From contig NZ_JALJRB010000005.1 in NCBI RefSeq assembly GCF_022968795.1, positions 124,001 through 188,000 on the forward strand: a stretch of DNA of 64,000 nt, given 5' to 3'. The translations under genes and the position numbers were made by a program. The notes under the pieces are model-generated. The model worked only from the letters and a program-made list of their open reading frames with translations, did no database searches and had not been told where the DNA came from. The DNA comes from Desulfatitalea alkaliphila (lineage in GTDB: Bacteria; Desulfobacterota; Desulfobacteria; Desulfobacterales; Desulfosarcinaceae). Numbering within the stretch: the stretch's first letter is position 1; the number at the start of each line of letters is the position of its first letter. Below are positions 21,495 through 29,282 of the stretch, one piece after another.

Positions 21495-21644
21495 GGGAAC
21501 TTCCAGCCAAACGCACCATGATGGATCGCGCCGATGCAACTTTTGGGCGAACCATCGGGTGCAATGGCCGCCGGACGGATAACGCCTGCCACGCGCCTGC
21601 GGCCTTGTCCTTGCTTTATGGCGCCGATGGAGAGTCAACAAACC

Positions 21645-23837
21645 ATGCCCGTTGAGCGAACCGCCGCCCATGCACCACCGGATTCCATGCCTTGTGAAGC
21701 GCCACATCCTGACACACCGCTGGAGTGGTGGTTTGTGCAAGGCTGGTTCGAAGGACGGCACACACCCCGGCGCCACTTTCTGTCGGTCCTGTTCAAAATC
21801 CAAGAAACATTGCCGGATGGCGCCGATACCACGGGTCATCTGCTGCTGACCTCGCACCTCGACCCCGCCACAAGGCGCCATCAATACCGCAGCGAAATCT
21901 GCCCGGCGGTGATCGACATCTTTCTGTCCAAGCTGGAATATCAGCAACGACACAACCTGGACGCCGACATCATCGCCATACTGGCCGATGAACTCCGCCG
22001 ATACGGCCCTCCCCACCCGATCCGCCTGGAATCCGCGCCGGTGCATCACACCATCGACCGGCTGGATTGTTCATGGGGCGACACACGCATCCGGCAAACC
22101 GAAAATCGAATCCACCTCCTGTACCGCTCACCGGAAGATGAAGCGATCTGTTCTTTGCACTGCGAACCCGTTTCCCACCGTTTTTTTGTGTCCGCCGACA
22201 AAGCGCGCGATTTCAAGATGAACTATGCTTGCACACCCCGGCTGACGCTGGCCGGTTCGGTCGCCGGCCAGGCGGTGCACGGCGAGGCGTGGTTCGACCA
22301 CCAATGGGGGGACCACGGCTTGCTCAACAGCGGCGCGGACAAAAAGCGGGTGCTGGGTTGGGAGTGGTTCGGCATCAATCTGGATGACGGCACGGACATC
22401 ATGCTGTATGTCAGCCGTGACATGCAGGACAACACAACGACCCTGCAACAAGCTTTTGTTTCCGATGGGATTAACGGCCCCCGACTGTTGACGGACTTCG
22501 CGGCGCATGCCACCCGAACCTGGGAAAGCGGCACCACCCGTTGCCGTTACCCGCTGGATTGGGAGCTGCACCTGCCGATGCAGGCACTCCACCTCACCCT
22601 GACCCCGCTGGCGGATGACCAGGAAATCCCGTTGTTCGGCACCATGCGCACGGTTTGGGAAGGCGCCTGCCGCGTCACGGGATTTCGCGGCCGACAGCCG
22701 GTAGCCGGTCGTGCACGCCTGGAGCTGCACGGCTATGGGTACATCCACCGCTTTCAGACCTACCTGGACCGCTGGATCGAACACATCGACGACCTGATCA
22801 AGGCGTTTCTGCCTCCCGTGTTGGACCACGACAGCTGTGCCCGCTTCGTGGACCGCCCCGAGCCCGGTGAACCGGAGTTGCACACCACCATGCTGGCCGA
22901 ACCGGTCTGGGACATGTTCAGTCGGGGCGGGAAACGGTGGCGCCCCATATTCGGTTTTCTGCTGCTCGAAGCCCTGGGTCGATCCCACAAACCCTTTGAA
23001 CAACTCCTGGCGGCCACCTTCGAATTGAACCACCTGGGCTCTCTGATTATCGACGACATCGAAGACGACTCCCTGCTGCGGCGCAAGCGGCCTTCCATCC
23101 ACCTGCAATACGGCCTCGACCTGGCCATCAACGCCGGCAACACCCTCTACATGCTGCCACTGTTGCTGCTGGAAAATCACCCGGCCCTCACGGTTGTCCA
23201 GAGGGAACAGATTTACCAAGTAATTATAAGGCATTATGTTAAGGCCCATTTCGGACAGGCCATGGACATCCACTGGTCCAAATTCATGTCCCGGGACCGT
23301 TTGGAGCACTGGCTGTCCGATGGCCTGGCGCACAAGGTGCTGCGCATGTATGCCGCCAAAACCGGCGCCTCGGTGGTGGGTGTGGCCCAAACCGCCTGCA
23401 TCATCACCAATACGCAGGGTGAAGCGCGGCGCAAGTTGATGGCTTTTGCCGAAGCCTTCGGCGTGGCGTTTCAGATCCTGGACGATGTGCTCAACTTCAG
23501 TCCCTCGCACACCTGGACCAAGACCGTCGGCGAGGATCTTGCCGCGGGCAAACCCACCTACGTGATTATCCAGGCCCTGGAGCAGGTTCGGGGAGATGCG
23601 GGCACCCACCTGCGACGCCTGATGTGGGATGCTGATTTGCGGAGCGACGCGGCCGCGCTGGACAGGGGGATTGAGATCGTCCAGCATTCAGGCGTGCTGG
23701 AACAGTGCCGGGAGGAAGCCCGGGCCATGGTGCGCGGCAACTGGGAAGCGGTGGCCGATATCCTGCGCCCCTCCGAGGCCAAAACCATGCTGCGCCTGTT
23801 GTGCGCCAACCTGACCGATCTGACCTTCGTCAGCTAG
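21645..23837 (+). CDS. Fusion: CrtC/AttH-like domain + trans-isoprenyl diphosphate synthase
   Basis: 730 aa from the ATG at 21645 (GGAGAG 10 nt upstream). Residues about 20-365 resemble the CrtC/AttH/kievitone-hydratase group: LEWWF at 26-30 and GEAWFDHQWGD at 213-223. Residues about 380-730 are a polyprenyl synthetase: GGKRWRP at 428-434, first aspartate-rich motif DDIED at 470-474, KTVGEDLAAGKPT at 626-638. The second aspartate motif reads DDVLN at 613-617, with Asn replacing the usual last Asp. Prenyl synthases condense IPP with allylic diphosphates; CrtC-type enzymes hydrate or cyclise terpenoid double bonds. A single polypeptide could therefore build and then modify a prenyl chain. The upstream exporter starts the same transcription unit. 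Confidence 0.88.
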   Translation: MPVERTAAHAPPDSMPCEAPHPDTPLEWWFVQGWFEGRHTPRRHFLSVLFKIQETLPDGADTTGHLLLTSHLDPATRRHQYRSEICPAVIDIFLSKLEYQQRHNLDADIIAILADELRRYGPPHPIRLESAPVHHTIDRLDCSWGDTRIRQTENRIHLLYRSPEDEAICSLHCEPVSHRFFVSADKARDFKMNYACTPRLTLAGSVAGQAVHGEAWFDHQWGDHGLLNSGADKKRVLGWEWFGINLDDGTDIMLYVSRDMQDNTTTLQQAFVSDGINGPRLLTDFAAHATRTWESGTTRCRYPLDWELHLPMQALHLTLTPLADDQEIPLFGTMRTVWEGACRVTGFRGRQPVAGRARLELHGYGYIHRFQTYLDRWIEHIDDLIKAFLPPVLDHDSCARFVDRPEPGEPELHTTMLAEPVWDMFSRGGKRWRPIFGFLLLEALGRSHKPFEQLLAATFELNHLGSLIIDDIEDDSLLRRKRPSIHLQYGLDLAINAGNTLYMLPLLLLENHPALTVVQREQIYQVIIRHYVKAHFGQAMDIHWSKFMSRDRLEHWLSDGLAHKVLRMYAAKTGASVVGVAQTACIITNTQGEARRKLMAFAEAFGVAFQILDDVLNFSPSHTWTKTVGEDLAAGKPTYVIIQALEQVRGDAGTHLRRLMWDADLRSDAAALDRGIEIVQHSGVLEQCREEARAMVRGNWEAVADILRPSEAKTMLRLLCANLTDLTFVS

Positions 23838-23920: not shown

Positions 23921-24184
23921 TCAGGGTTTGGCCAGGGTGCCGATCAGTTCCCGCAGCCGCCGCGACAAGGAGTCGGGCACCTGGGCTTTACCCGCCTGGC
24001 GGCACAGGGCAACGGTGCGCTGCAGCGTGGTCATGCACACTTTGCAGGCGTGGCAGCGCTCCAGATGGGCTTCGATCTCGCGGCACAGGCTGCCGTCCAG
24101 CTCGTTGTCCAGGTATTCGGACATGCGGGCGAACAGCTCCCGGCAGCGTGGATCCGGGTGGGTATGAACAGGATGTTCACTCAT
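23921..24184 (-). CDS. Zinc-finger anti-sigma factor
   Basis: An 87-aa protein with the zf-HC2 pattern: CRELFARMSEYLDNELDG, then EAHLERCHACKVC with His and two Cys of the H-x3-C-x2-C motif. No membrane segment, so it is a soluble ZAS-type anti-sigma factor that would hold the ECF sigma factor inactive. Its start overlaps the last 8 nt of the sigma gene, a typical translationally coupled sigma/anti-sigma pair. Extra cysteines suggest a possible redox or metal trigger, but this is inference. Confidence 0.88.
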   Translation of the reverse strand: MSEHPVHTHPDPRCRELFARMSEYLDNELDGSLCREIEAHLERCHACKVCMTTLQRTVALCRQAGKAQVPDSLSRRLRELIGTLAKP

Positions 24185-24788
24185 CGTCGTAATAGCTTTT
24201 CAAGCGGTCACGCAGAAAGAGGCGCGCACGGTGCAGGCGCACTTTCACGTTGGCCGGTGTCAGGTTCAAAATTTGCCCGCTCTCCTCGGTGGAGAACCCC
24301 TCGATATCCCTCAACACCAGAACCACCCGGTACTTGTCGGGCAATTCGAGGATGGCCGCCTCCAACCGGTGCCGCAACTCGTTGTTGAGCACCCGGTCCA
24401 ACGGCAGCGCCGCCCAGGAGGGAACCGCCTGCTCCACGGCGGCTTCGTCGGCCGGCAAAAATTCATCCAGGGAGAGCTCCCGTTCGGGTGCGTATTTGGA
24501 CTTGCGACGCTTCTTGATGCAGATGCTGGCGGCGATGCGATAGATCCAGTTCTTGAACTTGGTTTCATTGCGAAAACCATCCAGGTACCTGAATACATTT
24601 AAAAAGGTATCTTGAACAAGATCCTCCGCATCGCCGGCCACGCCGCACATTTTCATTCCGAAATTGTACAGGGCCCGCTCGTAGCGCCGGACCAGTTCGG
24701 GGAACACGGCCCTCGGATCGCTTCGGGCGGCCCTTAACAATTCGGCGTCGGGATCACTCTTTGTCGGGCAACGGTTCGCTTCGCTCAT
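24177..24788 (-). CDS. ECF-type RNA polymerase sigma factor
   Basis: A 203-aa sigma-70 family protein. Region 2 includes FPELVRRYERALYNFGMKM, GDAEDLVQDTFLNVFRYL and FKNWIYRIAASICIKKRR. Region 4 includes LPDKYRVVLVLRDIEGFSTE and TPANVKVRLHRARLFLRDRL. It is translated from an ATG with AAGGA upstream and is coupled to the anti-sigma gene by an 8-nt overlap. A perfect 8-bp dyad (24798-24817) sits just upstream of its ribosome binding site and may be part of a SECIS element of the preceding gene. The first 35 nt overlap the end of that gene's UGA-readthrough frame. Confidence 0.93.
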   Translation of the reverse strand: MSEANRCPTKSDPDAELLRAARSDPRAVFPELVRRYERALYNFGMKMCGVAGDAEDLVQDTFLNVFRYLDGFRNETKFKNWIYRIAASICIKKRRKSKYAPERELSLDEFLPADEAAVEQAVPSWAALPLDRVLNNELRHRLEAAILELPDKYRVVLVLRDIEGFSTEESGQILNLTPANVKVRLHRARLFLRDRLKSYYDDE

Positions 24789-24915
24789 CTTGATCCTTGC
24801 GTGTCACCTGACACGCATCACGCATTCATGTCGAAATCCCCAATCGGGGCAGGATATAGATCTGCAACGCCAACCATCCCCCCAACACCACCAACAATAT
24901 GATCAACTCTTTCAT
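24754..24915 (-). CDS. Probable small membrane selenoprotein (UGA read as selenocysteine)
   Basis: ATG at 24915 follows AAAGGAGG by 4 nt. The first 29 codons give MKELIILLVVLGGWLALQIY then ILPRLGIST, one transmembrane helix. Codon 30 is TGA (24828-24826). The frame continues 23 codons, MRDACQVTRKDQDERSEPLP then DKE, to a second TGA (24756-24754). A hairpin begins 8 nt after the first TGA: 8-bp perfect stem TGCGTGTC/GACACGCA with loop AGGT. The loop starts 16 nt after the UGA. In E. coli fdhF the loop AGGU starts 17 nt after the UGA, as I recall it, which matches a bacterial SECIS. Predicted 53 aa, Sec at 30 and Cys at 35. If UGA is a stop, a 29-aa peptide results. The sigma/anti-sigma pair follows. 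Confidence 0.7.
24798..24817 (-). promoter_or_regulatory. SECIS-like hairpin downstream of the in-frame UGA
   Basis: On the minus strand the 8-nt arms TGCGTGTC and GACACGCA enclose the loop AGGT, with a G in the first two loop positions as SelB recognition requires in E. coli. It lies 8 nt after the UGA at 24828-24826. There is no T-run after it, so it is not a terminator. It could alternatively be an operator for the sigma gene that starts at 24788. Confidence 0.6.
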
Positions 24916-25041
24916 AGGGCCTCCTTTAAGGCTGTTCATGCCACACCTTTGAAGAGACGAGGGGCCGGTTTTGGTTACAGAACGGGGCCCGGGGTGACGC
25001 CCCCTTTGCACTGCAAATGCAAATGCATTGCTCGCGCGCCC

Positions 25042-26424
25042 TTATTGTCGCGCCCGCAGGCTGTGGGCATCGATTTCATATTTCTTGATCTTGTAGTGAA
25101 TCGCCCGGCGGCTGATGCCGAGGAGCTTGGCCGCCTCCTTCTGAATACCGCCGGTCTGCTTCAGGGCACGAATGATGGCGCCCCGTTCGGTATCCTCCAG
25201 GGAAAAGGAGTCGTCGGCCGCCGGCGCCTCGGCGGTCACGGCAAGGGTAGGCAGTCCCGACTGATGCATATCCTCGGGCCGCAGCACATTGCCGCGGCAC
25301 AGCACGATACCCGCCTCGATGGCGTTCTTGAGTTCGCGCACATTGCCCGGCCACGGATACTTGGTGATGTAATCGACGGTCTCCTTGGGCACCTGCACCG
25401 ACGGCAGGCCGCTCTGGCACGCATAGGACTGCACGAAATGCTTGGCCAGCACCGGGATATCCTCGCGGCGCTCCCGCAGCGAGGGAATTTGCAGGGTGAC
25501 GACCCGCAGCCGGTAATAGAGATCTTCGCGGAAATTGCCCTTTTTGATCTCCTGTACCAGATCCGCGTTGGTGGCCGCCAGCACCCGGCAATCGACGCTG
25601 TTCTCCTTCAGATCACCGATGCGGCGGATTTTGCGATCCTCGAGAAAACGGAGCAGGCGCACCTGCATATCGGAAGAGATGTTGCCGATTTCATCCAGAA
25701 AAAGGGTGCCCTTGTCGGCGGTATCGATCAGGCCGCGCTTGTCGCTGACCGCATGGGTGAAAGCGCCGCGCACATGCCCGAAAAGCTCGCTCTCCAGAAG
25801 GCCGGCCGGCGTGCTGCCGCAATCGACCACCACGAAGGGGTGCTTGTGGCGGGCGCTCAAACGATGGATCAAGCGGGCGATCCGCTCCTTGCCCACCCCG
25901 CTTTCGCCCAGGATCAGCACATTGACATCGCTTTGAGCCACCCGCTGCACCAGGGTGTACAGCTCTTTCATCTTGGGGCTGGCGGCGGCCTCCATGTCCC
26001 CGATCAAGGCATCCTCATCGCCGTTGCCGGCGGCGCGGGGCTGTTCGGAGAGCACTTGCCGCAATTTGTAGACCAGCTGACGCCCGTCGAAGGGCTTGGG
26101 CAGATAGTCCACGGCGCCCGCCTTGACCGCCTGCACCGCGTCGGCCACCGTGCTGAAAGCGGTCAAAAAGATGATCGGCAGCCCCGGTTGCAGATCGCGG
26201 GCTTTGGCCATCACCTCCATGCCGCTCATGCCGGGCATCTTCATGTCGGAGATCATCAAATCCACCCGGTTGTCCTTGAGCAGGCGCAGCGCCTCCTGCC
26301 CGCTTTCGGCCGTGAGGATGTTGAACCCGGACGATTGCAGGCGCGCTTCGAGCACCTGCAATACATGGGGATCGTCATCGACGATCAGAATTGAAGACGG
26401 TATTGGATTGGGCACTTGTGCCAT
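25042..26424 (-). CDS. Sigma-54-dependent response regulator, QseF/GlrR-like
   Basis: A 461-aa NtrC-family activator starting at the ATG at 26424 (GAGGA about 9 nt upstream). Receiver at about 10-125 (ILIVDDDPHVLQVLE, phosphoacceptor in MISDMKMPGMSG, Lys in LPKPFD). AAA+ domain at about 150-380: Walker A GESGVGKE, Walker B GTLFLDEIGNIS. C-terminal Fis-type helix-turn-helix (AAKLLGISRRAIHYKIKKY). The sigma-54-contact loop reads GAFTHA instead of the usual GAFTGA. With the lipoprotein and kinase genes upstream on the same strand it forms a QseE-QseG-QseF-type set, which in enterobacteria responds to envelope signals. Confidence 0.93.
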   Translation of the reverse strand: MAQVPNPIPSSILIVDDDPHVLQVLEARLQSSGFNILTAESGQEALRLLKDNRVDLMISDMKMPGMSGMEVMAKARDLQPGLPIIFLTAFSTVADAVQAVKAGAVDYLPKPFDGRQLVYKLRQVLSEQPRAAGNGDEDALIGDMEAAASPKMKELYTLVQRVAQSDVNVLILGESGVGKERIARLIHRLSARHKHPFVVVDCGSTPAGLLESELFGHVRGAFTHAVSDKRGLIDTADKGTLFLDEIGNISSDMQVRLLRFLEDRKIRRIGDLKENSVDCRVLAATNADLVQEIKKGNFREDLYYRLRVVTLQIPSLRERREDIPVLAKHFVQSYACQSGLPSVQVPKETVDYITKYPWPGNVRELKNAIEAGIVLCRGNVLRPEDMHQSGLPTLAVTAEAPAADDSFSLEDTERGAIIRALKQTGGIQKEAAKLLGISRRAIHYKIKKYEIDAHSLRARQ

Positions 26425-26542
26425 ATGGATAATTCCTCGGTCGGGCCGGCCATGGCGGTCCACCAATGGGGAATAACCCCACGGCCTTTGGTTGCCTGAA
26501 GCGATGTGGCCCGACGTTCAATGCGTCTGATGGATCAATGGA

Positions 26543-27232
26543 TCAATCGGTTGAGGGAATAGCGCTTTTTCGTTCCTGGATCCGTTGGTCGATCTTTTCG
26601 AAGGCTTCGATTTGCTGATTCAAGCGGTCGATCTCATTTTCAAGCGTCTTGATTTGATGTTCTTTGTTTTTCACCTGCTGCTCGGTGGCATCCAGACGCA
26701 GGGTCATCTGCCGCAGGGCCTGGTTGGCTTCCACCATGTACCATTTGGGCGCACCCGGGTTCGGTTGCCCATTGCCCCCCGGCGCGTCCAGATCCGGTGG
26801 CATGTGGGAAAAGACCATCTTTTCCCGAACCAGGGGCGCGAACAAGCGTGCATCCTCATAGCCGACCGCCCCGGGATCGGTATCGAGCCATGCCTCCCAG
26901 AGCGCCAAAGCCCGAGAATAATCGGATACCGTTTCGGCGGCCATCAATCGGGCGCACGCCTCACCATAAAGTGCCATGCGTGCCATGACAGGGTTGCCGG
27001 TCTGCTCGCGCAGGGTTGCAAAACGTTTGGCGGCCCCTGTGTAATCGCCTTGCGTGTAACAGCGAACCGCTTCCTCATGGGATTGCAGGGCAGGTGCCGG
27101 CAGTTCTCCCGGAGCCGTCACCGCCGGCGGTCGGACCGGCCAAGGGCAGCCGGTCACCATCAGCGTCAAACCGCAACACATTATAATAAAGGCCAAAACC
27201 GTAACCGACCGGGGTCGCTTGGCATACGCCAT
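26543..27232 (-). CDS. QseG-like outer-membrane lipoprotein
   Basis: A 229-aa lipoprotein from the ATG at 27232: MAYAKRPRSV then a hydrophobic stretch and lipobox MVTGC (lipidated Cys29). Residues about 50-130 look helical, tetratricopeptide-like (SHEEAVRCYTQGDYTGAAKR). The C-terminal part (about 165-220) is a strong coiled coil (QVKNKEHQIKTLENEIDRLN). Its place between a GlrK/QseE-type kinase and a GlrR/QseF-type regulator matches the enterobacterial glrK-yfhG-glrR order, where QseG activates the kinase from the outer membrane. Sequence similarity cannot be measured here, so the identification rests mostly on context. Confidence 0.75.
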   Translation of the reverse strand: MAYAKRPRSVTVLAFIIMCCGLTLMVTGCPWPVRPPAVTAPGELPAPALQSHEEAVRCYTQGDYTGAAKRFATLREQTGNPVMARMALYGEACARLMAAETVSDYSRALALWEAWLDTDPGAVGYEDARLFAPLVREKMVFSHMPPDLDAPGGNGQPNPGAPKWYMVEANQALRQMTLRLDATEQQVKNKEHQIKTLENEIDRLNQQIEAFEKIDQRIQERKSAIPSTD

Positions 27233-27752
27233 GTTCGGCAGCCCACCGGCAGGGGCGTTTCGGCTAAAAACTTCGGTATGGGGCATTGGCATCCAATCCA
27301 GCTCAGCACCCTGCGCAGCGCAGTGAGGTCGAGGCCATTCCGACCACAAGACCCATCCGGCCTTTCGCCCGCAGGTCCGAGGGGTGACGAAAACAATCTA
27401 TGGATTCTATATCATGTCCACCGGCATGTGCAATAGATAGTAGGGGCACGCCATGCCGTGCCCGACCCGAGGCGCGATCATGATTGCAGCGCCCGCAGCG
27501 GCGTGGCACTGGCAACGGGTTGCCAGTGTTGCGCAGCAACAAGAGGTCATGCGCATCACTCCCGAAACACCCTATATCCCCACATTTCCCTCGAACGCCG
27601 TGGGGCAATGGCTACCGGATCAAAATCCTTTCCACATGATTTCTGCACCCGATTGCCGGGCCATATCCCCCCACACATCTAAACGACAGAATTCATTAAC
27701 TTAACACTTAACACTTAAAACTTAAAACTGCCCGCAGGGCACCAAGCCGCGA
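27233..27752. other. Gene-free interval with a 32-nt direct repeat and heptamer repeats
   Basis: About 520 nt between the kinase and the lipoprotein. Positions 27474-27505 repeat 27749-27780, the last codons of the kinase gene, with two mismatches in 32 nt. Just before the second copy lie four tandem heptamers TTAACAC/TTAAAAC (27701-27728). I see no coding frame. The arrangement looks like a small insertion or a tandem duplication of the gene's 3' end that later diverged. Confidence 0.6.
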
Positions 27753-29282
27753 TCATGATTGCAACGCCCGCAGCGGCTTGCGCTTGGCGTACCAGCGCCG
27801 CCCGCCCGCCCCCTGTTCCGCGGGTGCGAACAGCGGCAGCGTGAAACTGAAGGTGGTGCCTTGTCCCACCCGGCTCTCGACCCAAATGGTGCCGCCGTGG
27901 GCCTCGACAATGTTCTTGGTGATGCTCAAACCCAACCCCACGCCGTCCAGATGCTCCCGGACGTTGGTGGCCCGATAGAATTTATTGAACAGGTTGCCGA
28001 TCTCCTCGTCCAGAATCCCCGGACCGGTATCCACCACATTAAAGGTAATCTGTTGCTGGACGGACTGCAACCCTACGCGAATCCAGATTTTAGCACCGGG
28101 CTCGGCAAACTTCACGGCATTGCCGATCAGATTGAGAAACACCTGCCGCAGATATTGCCCATCGCCCCGCACGTCCGGTGTTTCGGGCGGTATTTCGGTC
28201 ATTACATGCACCTGCTTGGCTTCGACGGAAGGCTTGAGGCTTTGCACACAATCGGCCACAAGGGCATAGGTGTCCACCGGCCCATGGTTGAGTTGCAAGG
28301 CGCCCGGTTCCAGGCGCGAGGCCTGCATCAGGTGATTGAGCAGATCGCACAAGCGCCCGATCTCGGCGCCGGCGATTTCCAAAAACTTTTGTTGCCGGTC
28401 ATTGATCGGCCCCATGACTTGCTCCTCAATCATGTTGACCGATTCGCGGATGGAAGTCAACGGGGTGCGGATCTCATGGCTCAACATGGAAATGAAATCG
28501 GAACGCAGCTGCTCCTCCTGCCGCAATCGATCGGTCATCTCATTGAAGGCCGCGGCCAGCTCGCCCAATTCGTCCTTGGAGTGAATTTGCAACGGGGAAC
28601 TGGAACGATTCTTGGTGATGGAACGAATGCCGCGCATCAGCTCTTTGAGAGGACGGATCATGGAATAGGAGAGGAACACCACCCCCAAGAGCCCCACCAG
28701 GCTGGCGATCCCCAATCCGATCAGCGCATTGTGGGCCGACTGCACGCCCCTGCGATTCAGCTCGCGGGTGGCGTTTTCCACCTCCAGGGAGTTCTCCAGG
28801 CGGGCGGCCGAGATCTGCTCGATCCAATCGTTGATCACCGTCTCGGGGATCCAGAGGGTGCCTCCCGGCGCCACGGCCTCCGGGGGCGGCTGCGCCGTCG
28901 CATCCACCGGCATGGGCGGAAACTGTTCATAGGCATCGGCCACCGTCTGCCAATGGGGCGACAGGTCGGCACCGTGATCGGCCAGTACCAGCACCCGGTT
29001 CAGGCCGGCCTCGAACTCCTGGCGGGCACGGATGAAAAATTCGAGATAGTCCTGGCGCTGCAGGAGTTGGTATTTTTTCTCATTCTCTTCCATGCTGATC
29101 AGGTTTTCCAGCATGCGCTTGGACAGATCCGAGACGGCGTAGTTTTTACTGACGATGCTTTCAGAGAGGTGAACCACTTGCTGAAAGTTGACATAGAGCA
29201 ACAGTATCGTGCCGTAAAAGAAGGCCACAATGGCAAAAAACCAGATCAGCAGCTTGCCCGTAATTCCGTAGCTTGGGTCCAT
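27753..29282 (-). CDS. Membrane histidine kinase with HAMP domain, QseE/GlrK-like
   Basis: A 509-aa sensor kinase. TM1 at about 10-32 (LLIWFFAIVAFFYGTILLLY), a periplasmic region of about 150 residues, TM2 at about 183-206, HAMP (MIRPLKELMRGIRSI), the phosphoacceptor His in ISMLSHEIRTPLTSIRES, and an ATPase domain with NLIGNAVKFA, DTGPGILDEE and GVGLGLSITKNIVEAHGG. It should autophosphorylate and transfer phosphate to the regulator encoded two genes downstream. The kinase core and gene order fit GlrK/QseE. The C-terminal tail (WYAKRKPLRALQS) is basic, and its coding end is duplicated at 27474-27505. Confidence 0.92.
   Translation of the reverse strand: MDPSYGITGKLLIWFFAIVAFFYGTILLLYVNFQQVVHLSESIVSKNYAVSDLSKRMLENLISMEENEKKYQLLQRQDYLEFFIRARQEFEAGLNRVLVLADHGADLSPHWQTVADAYEQFPPMPVDATAQPPPEAVAPGGTLWIPETVINDWIEQISAARLENSLEVENATRELNRRGVQSAHNALIGLGIASLVGLLGVVFLSYSMIRPLKELMRGIRSITKNRSSSPLQIHSKDELGELAAAFNEMTDRLRQEEQLRSDFISMLSHEIRTPLTSIRESVNMIEEQVMGPINDRQQKFLEIAGAEIGRLCDLLNHLMQASRLEPGALQLNHGPVDTYALVADCVQSLKPSVEAKQVHVMTEIPPETPDVRGDGQYLRQVFLNLIGNAVKFAEPGAKIWIRVGLQSVQQQITFNVVDTGPGILDEEIGNLFNKFYRATNVREHLDGVGLGLSITKNIVEAHGGTIWVESRVGQGTTFSFTLPLFAPAEQGAGGRRWYAKRKPLRALQS

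Follow-up and report, generated by a model that had tools for sequence, protein, structure and literature searches.

Single-pass membrane selenoproteins that carry Sec in the tail after the helix are represented in eukaryotes by SELENOK and SELENOS, and the predicted peptide described here has the same arrangement, although the two eukaryotic proteins are longer and their Sec lies close to the C-terminus, and no sequence relation between them and the peptide is claimed. For prokaryotes, table 1 of a recent review lists 119 known selenoprotein families, and the limits given there for the bSECIS hairpin are a loop of 3-9 nt with a G in the first two loop positions, a distance of 16-37 nt from the UGA and an MFE of -7.5 or lower (PMC13188914). 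Methods for the discovery of selenoproteins lean on abundant Cys relatives (PMC13188914, PMC12013277), and the authors of the deep-learning screen deep-Sep stated that proteins may be lost when they have no Cys relatives (PMC12013277). According to its main text, deep-Sep screened Desulfosarcina ovata, with no new gene, and D. widdelii, with one, and reported DG, DW and DF as unnamed hypothetical selenoproteins of Desulfosarcina and Desulfosediminicola (PMC12013277); the review gives GUxG and GxU as the motifs of DG and DW and refers to NCBIfam models named for DG, DW and DF (PMC13188914). An FmdB-family selenoprotein was described in the GOS study with a CxxU motif (PMC2398784) and is given with UxxU in the review table (PMC13188914).

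The window analysed here is a stretch of 64,000 nucleotides from Desulfatitalea alkaliphila (contig NZ_JALJRB010000005.1, positions 124,001 to 188,000), which belongs to the order Desulfobacterales, class Desulfobacteria, of the phylum Desulfobacterota. An initial annotation had proposed a small selenoprotein gene in this window and left its strand unstated; the gene lies at exactly the proposed coordinates on the minus strand (Table 1), and the TGA at codon 30, the frame of 53 codons up to a second TGA and the Cys five residues after the first were all as it had described them. The product of readthrough would be MKELIILLVVLGGWLALQIYILPRLGIST-U-MRDACQVTRKDQDERSEPLPDKE, whereas annotation would end the gene at the UGA. 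AlphaFold2 returned a single helix followed by a loose tail (mean pLDDT 68, pTM 0.35), with pLDDT values of 89 and 87 for the helix block up to residue 20 and lower values beyond. The protein encoded by the anti-sigma factor gene matched zf-HC2 and scored 39.3 bits against the RsrA model TIGR03988, below the cut-off of 62.5. A comparison of 1 kb around the peptide gene with a plasmid collection gave no match. Elsewhere in the window, the region 25042-29282 on the minus strand, immediately upstream of the genes for the peptide and the ECF factor, encodes a histidine kinase, a protein of 268 aa with no match in Pfam, and the NtrC-type regulator, in an order that we take to resemble GlrK-QseG-GlrR, and a gene at 21534-23837 on the plus strand fuses CrtC/Lipocalin_9 domains to a polyprenyl synthetase.

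Table 1. The predicted selenoprotein gene and its surroundings, in window positions.
Feature	Position	Strand	Remark
Selenoprotein gene (predicted), 53 codons	24754..24915	(-)	second stop TGA at 24756-24754
ATG start of the peptide gene	24915-24913	(-)	
Ribosome binding site AAAGGAGG	24920..24927	(-)	4 nt before the ATG
Predicted Sec codon TGA (codon 30)	24826..24828	(-)	same position kept in relatives
Cys codon, conserved	24811..24813	(-)	5 residues after Sec
Predicted helix, residues 2-24	24844..24912	(-)	AlphaFold2
Bacterial-SECIS-like hairpin, 8 bp	24798..24817	(-)	loop AGGU at 24806-24809
ECF sigma factor gene	24177..24788	(-)	first 35 nt shared with the end of the selenoprotein gene
Zinc-finger anti-sigma factor gene	23921..24184	(-)	zf-HC2; after the ECF gene
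NtrC-type sigma-54 response regulator gene	25042..26466	(-)	upstream of the peptide gene

In a first protein search, run with readthrough of stops, 85 of 97 genomes had the peptide (E <= 5e-5, the genome of the window counted), with one TGA inside every match and two matches extending into the terminal stop. Relatives were then detected by a profile of 29 rows in 305 of the 389 genomes of the class (E <= 0.01), and among the class matches listed, every genome was of the same order as the source and every match had the TGA. Across the phylum, the same profile found relatives in 166 of 395 genomes and a broader profile of 71 rows in 171 of these 395 sampled species, four of which gave only matches weaker than 1e-5. 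The TGA was present in every listed phylum match of the broader profile; three of the listed phylum matches of the 29-row profile showed no TGA because the match stopped just short of it.

At the level of single loci, the TGA was kept in all 30 loci read first and in all 100 phylum loci outside the order, where it stood 25-31 codons past the chosen start; these 100 were taken down the list of matches outside the order, some from already-taken genera being passed over. After removal of four duplicates and of repeat copies of order loci, 151 distinct Sec loci were obtained, 46 of the order and 105 others. Locus parsing sought the TGA and lost no locus, a looser TGA pattern having found 67 of 67 order loci and all 100 phylum loci having been parsed. 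The family motif of this one-helix peptide is LP[KR]xGxxTU. Thr directly preceded the TGA in 146 of the 151 loci, and Cys followed it at +5 in 129 and at +6 in 13 (together 142/151), only at +10 to +21 in five and not at all in four. Both the in-frame UGA and the coding sequence after it are thus conserved. One branch (L129, L164 and L171) has tails such as TULxPxNRQ, in which Sec is kept and no Cys follows soon after.

Forms with Cys in place of Sec were searched for with a DNA pattern over genome contigs that cover 84,980 species with one genome apiece; the TGA twin of this pattern finds 88 of the 100 phylum loci and 66 of the 67 order loci. Thirteen stretches matched the Cys pattern, and ten of them were judged true relatives: four from deltaproteobacterial MAGs, three from Myxococcales, two from Gimesia and one from another planctomycete. 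The remaining three were dropped, L187 for a stop inside the match and L185 and L189 for having no hydrophobic stretch before it. The profile gave a single stop-free match in each of the ten Cys-form genomes and showed no TGA copy in them. The Cys relatives run on through this position, and four of them carry a PTCMSGAC tail. A selB gene above cut-off was found in three of the ten genomes, those of the Myxococcales, and the other seven were without one. Cys forms exist and are rare in this search, whose pattern fixes Trp and other positions so that divergent Cys forms would escape it. In two Myxococcales proteins, the Cys form runs on into a DUF302 domain (L193:4444-4977 and L196:6095-6613, both on the minus strand).

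The hairpin that the initial annotation had described after the TGA was reproduced by folding the 42 nt that begin with the TGA: the stem of 8 bp starts 8 nt and the AGGU loop 16 nt after the TGA, a hairpin of the bSECIS type. By itself, it is only modestly unusual (-13.0 kcal/mol, z = -2.25, with 6 of 200 shuffles as stable), yet it is conserved across relatives, and this conservation is what exceeds chance. We counted such hairpins under the published bSECIS limits (PMC13188914) and a stem of at least 4, with and without the energy limit, using as controls 284 TGA stops of ORFs of at least 150 aa in the same loci and the ten Cys relatives. With no energy limit, a hairpin was found at 125 of the 151 Sec loci, against 41 of the 284 TGA stops and 2 of the 10 Cys relatives, leaving 26 Sec loci that missed the criteria; with the limit of -7.5 kcal/mol, the respective counts were 107/151, 26/284 and 2/10. 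An earlier count of 139 of 155 loci, against 38% of shuffles, included four duplicate loci and had no stem minimum, and 125/151 is preferred to it.

Two hairpin designs dominate, one with the AGGU loop at 16 nt and CQ-type tails and the other with GGA- or GUC-like loops at 23 nt; 22 of 155 loci fit neither class and stood outside the covariation tests. The 23-nt class, with 61 sequences picked by protein motif, had 92 doubly changed cells, where shuffles had 42, and scored 0.449 for covariation, where shuffles scored 0.216. For the AGGU class (65 of 65 sequences distinct, including L125, whose hairpin differs and whose removal gave nearly the same result), the corresponding values were 39 versus 15 cells and 0.239 versus 0.131. 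None of 500 shuffles scored as high in either class, counts that are not probabilities because the shuffles do not preserve relatedness. Sliding the pairing partner lowered the scores, and neither the count of pairs showing double changes nor the count of pair types exceeded that of shuffles in either class. The stems covary, and on this comparison of sequences the hairpin is conserved as a structure. With a UGA followed at once by a hairpin of the bSECIS type and with Cys counterparts, the peptide gene is like the known prokaryotic selenoprotein genes covered by the review (PMC13188914).

The source genome contains the Sec machinery that the initial annotation had proposed to look for, namely selA and selB, both above cut-off, and a tRNA-Sec gene (selC) with the anticodon TCA. 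Two formate dehydrogenase-like genes with an in-frame TGA in a CARxUH setting were also found in this genome, both below the family cut-off. In the phylum, selB scored above cut-off in 353 of 395 genomes, and being nearly universal there, its co-occurrence with the peptide says little. At least five peptide-bearing genomes (G398, G401, G427, G474 and G709) had no selB match at 1e-40, possibly owing to incomplete assembly.

We then compared the family with described proteins. The best matches of 71 members had E values of 0.003 in NCBIfam (release of June 2026) and 0.009 in Pfam, each to an unrelated family, and no named family of either library matched above its curated cut-off; single members gave no useful match in NCBIfam or Pfam, and PDB sequences yielded nothing useful either. 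Among the 119 entries of the review table, none describes a one-helix peptide with LP[KR]xGxxTU (PMC13188914). The peptide has a different motif from DG and DW of deep-Sep and no useful match to NCBIfam, where models named for DG, DW and DF exist, and is set apart from these three by their published descriptions. A literature search showed no description of the peptide among the papers listed, and the main text of deep-Sep, taken alone, leaves room for its having been counted unnamed. As the initial annotation had proposed, the gene almost certainly encodes a new small selenoprotein, whose relatives carry the TGA, or rarely Cys, together with conserved downstream residues, and it would represent a family apparently undescribed before.

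At 29 of the 105 loci outside the order, a gene for an FmdB zinc-ribbon protein was found on the same strand within about 500 nt of the peptide gene, upstream in 15 cases and downstream in 14. All 29 genes matched TIGR02605, and all 29 run to a TGA with one or two more codons before another stop (e.g. L142:3920-4123 and L088:3086-3310). A conserved Cys precedes this TGA, as does a Phe two residues before it, in the form F[ST] in 28 genes and FK in one. Of the best 30 phylum matches to an FmdB profile, many of which are the same genes, 28 were parsed and 28 of 28 end alike, with the peptide nearby in 22 by a strict motif; this set is biased because TGA forms were the source of the profile, and a stop inside is absent from many weaker matches. 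Hairpins followed the FmdB TGAs in many cases, which is a raw, uncontrolled observation. The FmdB gene beside the peptide is a candidate for, and probably is, a C-terminal selenoprotein in its own right. It belongs to the same zinc-ribbon family as the FmdB selenoprotein of the GOS study and differs from it in that the UGA is the second- or third-last codon instead of standing in CxxU (PMC2398784) or UxxU (PMC13188914).

The other neighbours differed between the order and the rest of the phylum. Clustering placed an ECF gene downstream of the peptide gene at 23 of the 46 order loci, and the window, whose ECF gene was hidden from clustering by a longer antisense ORF, brings this to 24 when added by hand, a lower bound because ORF choice can hide genes. 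An NtrC-type regulator lies upstream at 16 of the 46 order loci. No ECF gene was found at the 105 loci elsewhere in the phylum, and most Sec loci outside the order have unrelated, unshared neighbours. By clustering, a thioredoxin gene occurs on the same strand at 7 of the 151 Sec loci and a CcdA gene at 6, on the opposite strand in four of the six, both being raw counts uncorrected for genome background; CcdA was also recognized by eye in L147 and L149. At all four deltaproteobacterial MAG loci, a CcdA-type gene begins -4 to +3 nt after the Cys gene, and two of these CcdA-type genes encode DsbD_TM and thioredoxin domains. One group of loci combines ArsR (in three examined loci), the peptide, a small Cys-containing protein, FmdB, thioredoxin and CcdA, not all of these genes being shown at each locus. 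The small Cys-containing proteins between peptide and FmdB at L142:3726-3914 and L134:3679-3876 are similar to each other (63-66 aa), and that of L142 had no Pfam match.

Taken as a whole, the best explanation is probably that the product of the gene is a selenoprotein spanning the membrane once, with Sec inserted at UGA-30, that takes part in a thiol-redox relay. Its functional parts are less secure when judged separately: a thiol-redox relay at the membrane, with the peptide as a thioredoxin-linked membrane selenol, is a tentative proposal, and control of the ECF system by the peptide is improbable. The protein of about 50 residues would be anchored by one N-terminal helix, and the conservation of the hairpin right after UGA-30 suggests that it guides SelB and tRNA-Sec in inserting Sec there. 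On average, family members carry a net charge of -0.2 in the four positions that follow Met and of +2.4 from residue 21 on; under the positive-inside rule, this pattern would leave the tail with Sec facing the cytosol. A selenenylsulfide might form between Sec and the Cys five or six residues further along and be reduced by thioredoxin, and reducing equivalents would thereby be passed between cytosolic thioredoxin and a thiol target in or near the membrane. In some lineages, such targets may be the FmdB zinc-ribbon protein and CcdA/DsbD-type transporters; solely in the lineage of the window, they might include the zinc-binding anti-sigma factor encoded with the neighbouring ECF sigma factor. 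We favour a thioredoxin-linked relay since thioredoxin, CcdA and FmdB are recurring, though minority, neighbours. The case is evenly balanced for a wider reading, in which the Sec peptide and an FmdB protein with Sec as its second- or third-last residue would form a two-selenoprotein membrane redox module, ancient in the phylum and served by thioredoxin and CcdA, with Sec normal and Cys exceptional, both proteins having been missed as selenoproteins by family libraries and the peptide apparently also by the deep-learning screen.

If the UGA were instead an ordinary stop, the gene would encode a 29-residue membrane peptide, and the conserved stretch would be some other element, for instance a regulatory hairpin or a leader for the gene that follows. 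A helix of 29 residues is a plausible small membrane protein on its own, and the tail overlaps the ECF start in the window, but the frame after the TGA argues otherwise: an in-frame stop within 12 codons occurs at none of the 151 loci, leaving at least 13 open codons at every one, whereas the other two frames have a stop within this distance at 97 and 62 loci, in a collection gathered by a protein search that somewhat prefers open tails but also accepted matches ending at the TGA. Cys relatives, among them the four with the PTCMSGAC tail, continue through the position, TAA or TAG versions of the pattern gave no match among the collected loci, and the downstream neighbours vary among loci, so that the conserved stretch is not one leader. 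Homologues that end at the TGA without downstream conservation, and a genome lacking selB and selC, either of which the initial annotation had named as counting against a selenoprotein, were not encountered. We consequently discarded a plain stop, leader or attenuator, given the open frame, the varying neighbours and the Cys relatives, and regard this explanation as hardly credible.

The alternatives that retain Sec concern its use. The initial annotation had suggested that the peptide serves the ECF sigma factor as a membrane redox sensor, and if this were the chief function, membrane oxidants would oxidise Sec, and Sec would oxidise the zinc anti-sigma factor. The overlap of the peptide and ECF genes in the window, the zf-HC2 domain and sub-cut-off RsrA match of the anti-sigma protein and the ECF gene downstream at 24 or more of the 46 order loci, the window among them, are consistent with such a sensor; the absence of the ECF gene from all 105 loci elsewhere leaves at most a lineage-specific use, means that ECF sensing is not the general function of the family, for which it was rejected, and makes a chiefly ECF-directed peptide unlikely. 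The link to the ECF factor is thus local to the order, and a membrane redox role of the peptide would fit some of the other neighbours, namely thioredoxin, CcdA and FmdB. Somewhat less improbable, though still doubtful, is a membrane-bound peroxidase or a peptide handling polysulfide or selenide, whose Sec would reduce membrane peroxides or persulfides with thioredoxin as the reductant and CcdA as a mere neighbour. The predicted position of Sec beside the membrane surface, the possible resolving Cys and the thioredoxin neighbours would suit this function, but no known peroxidase domain was found in NCBIfam or Pfam, and four Cys-form genes directly precede a CcdA-type gene.

If translated as predicted, the peptide would rank among the common selenoproteins of sulfate reducers and their relatives (171 of 395 sampled phylum species), very small, with one predicted membrane helix and with Sec in nearly every genome where it is found, and it is missing from the family libraries searched and from the review table (PMC13188914). 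It points to the linked FmdB selenoprotein candidate, and with it the use of Sec at the membrane surface would become directly testable in cultured Desulfosarcina.
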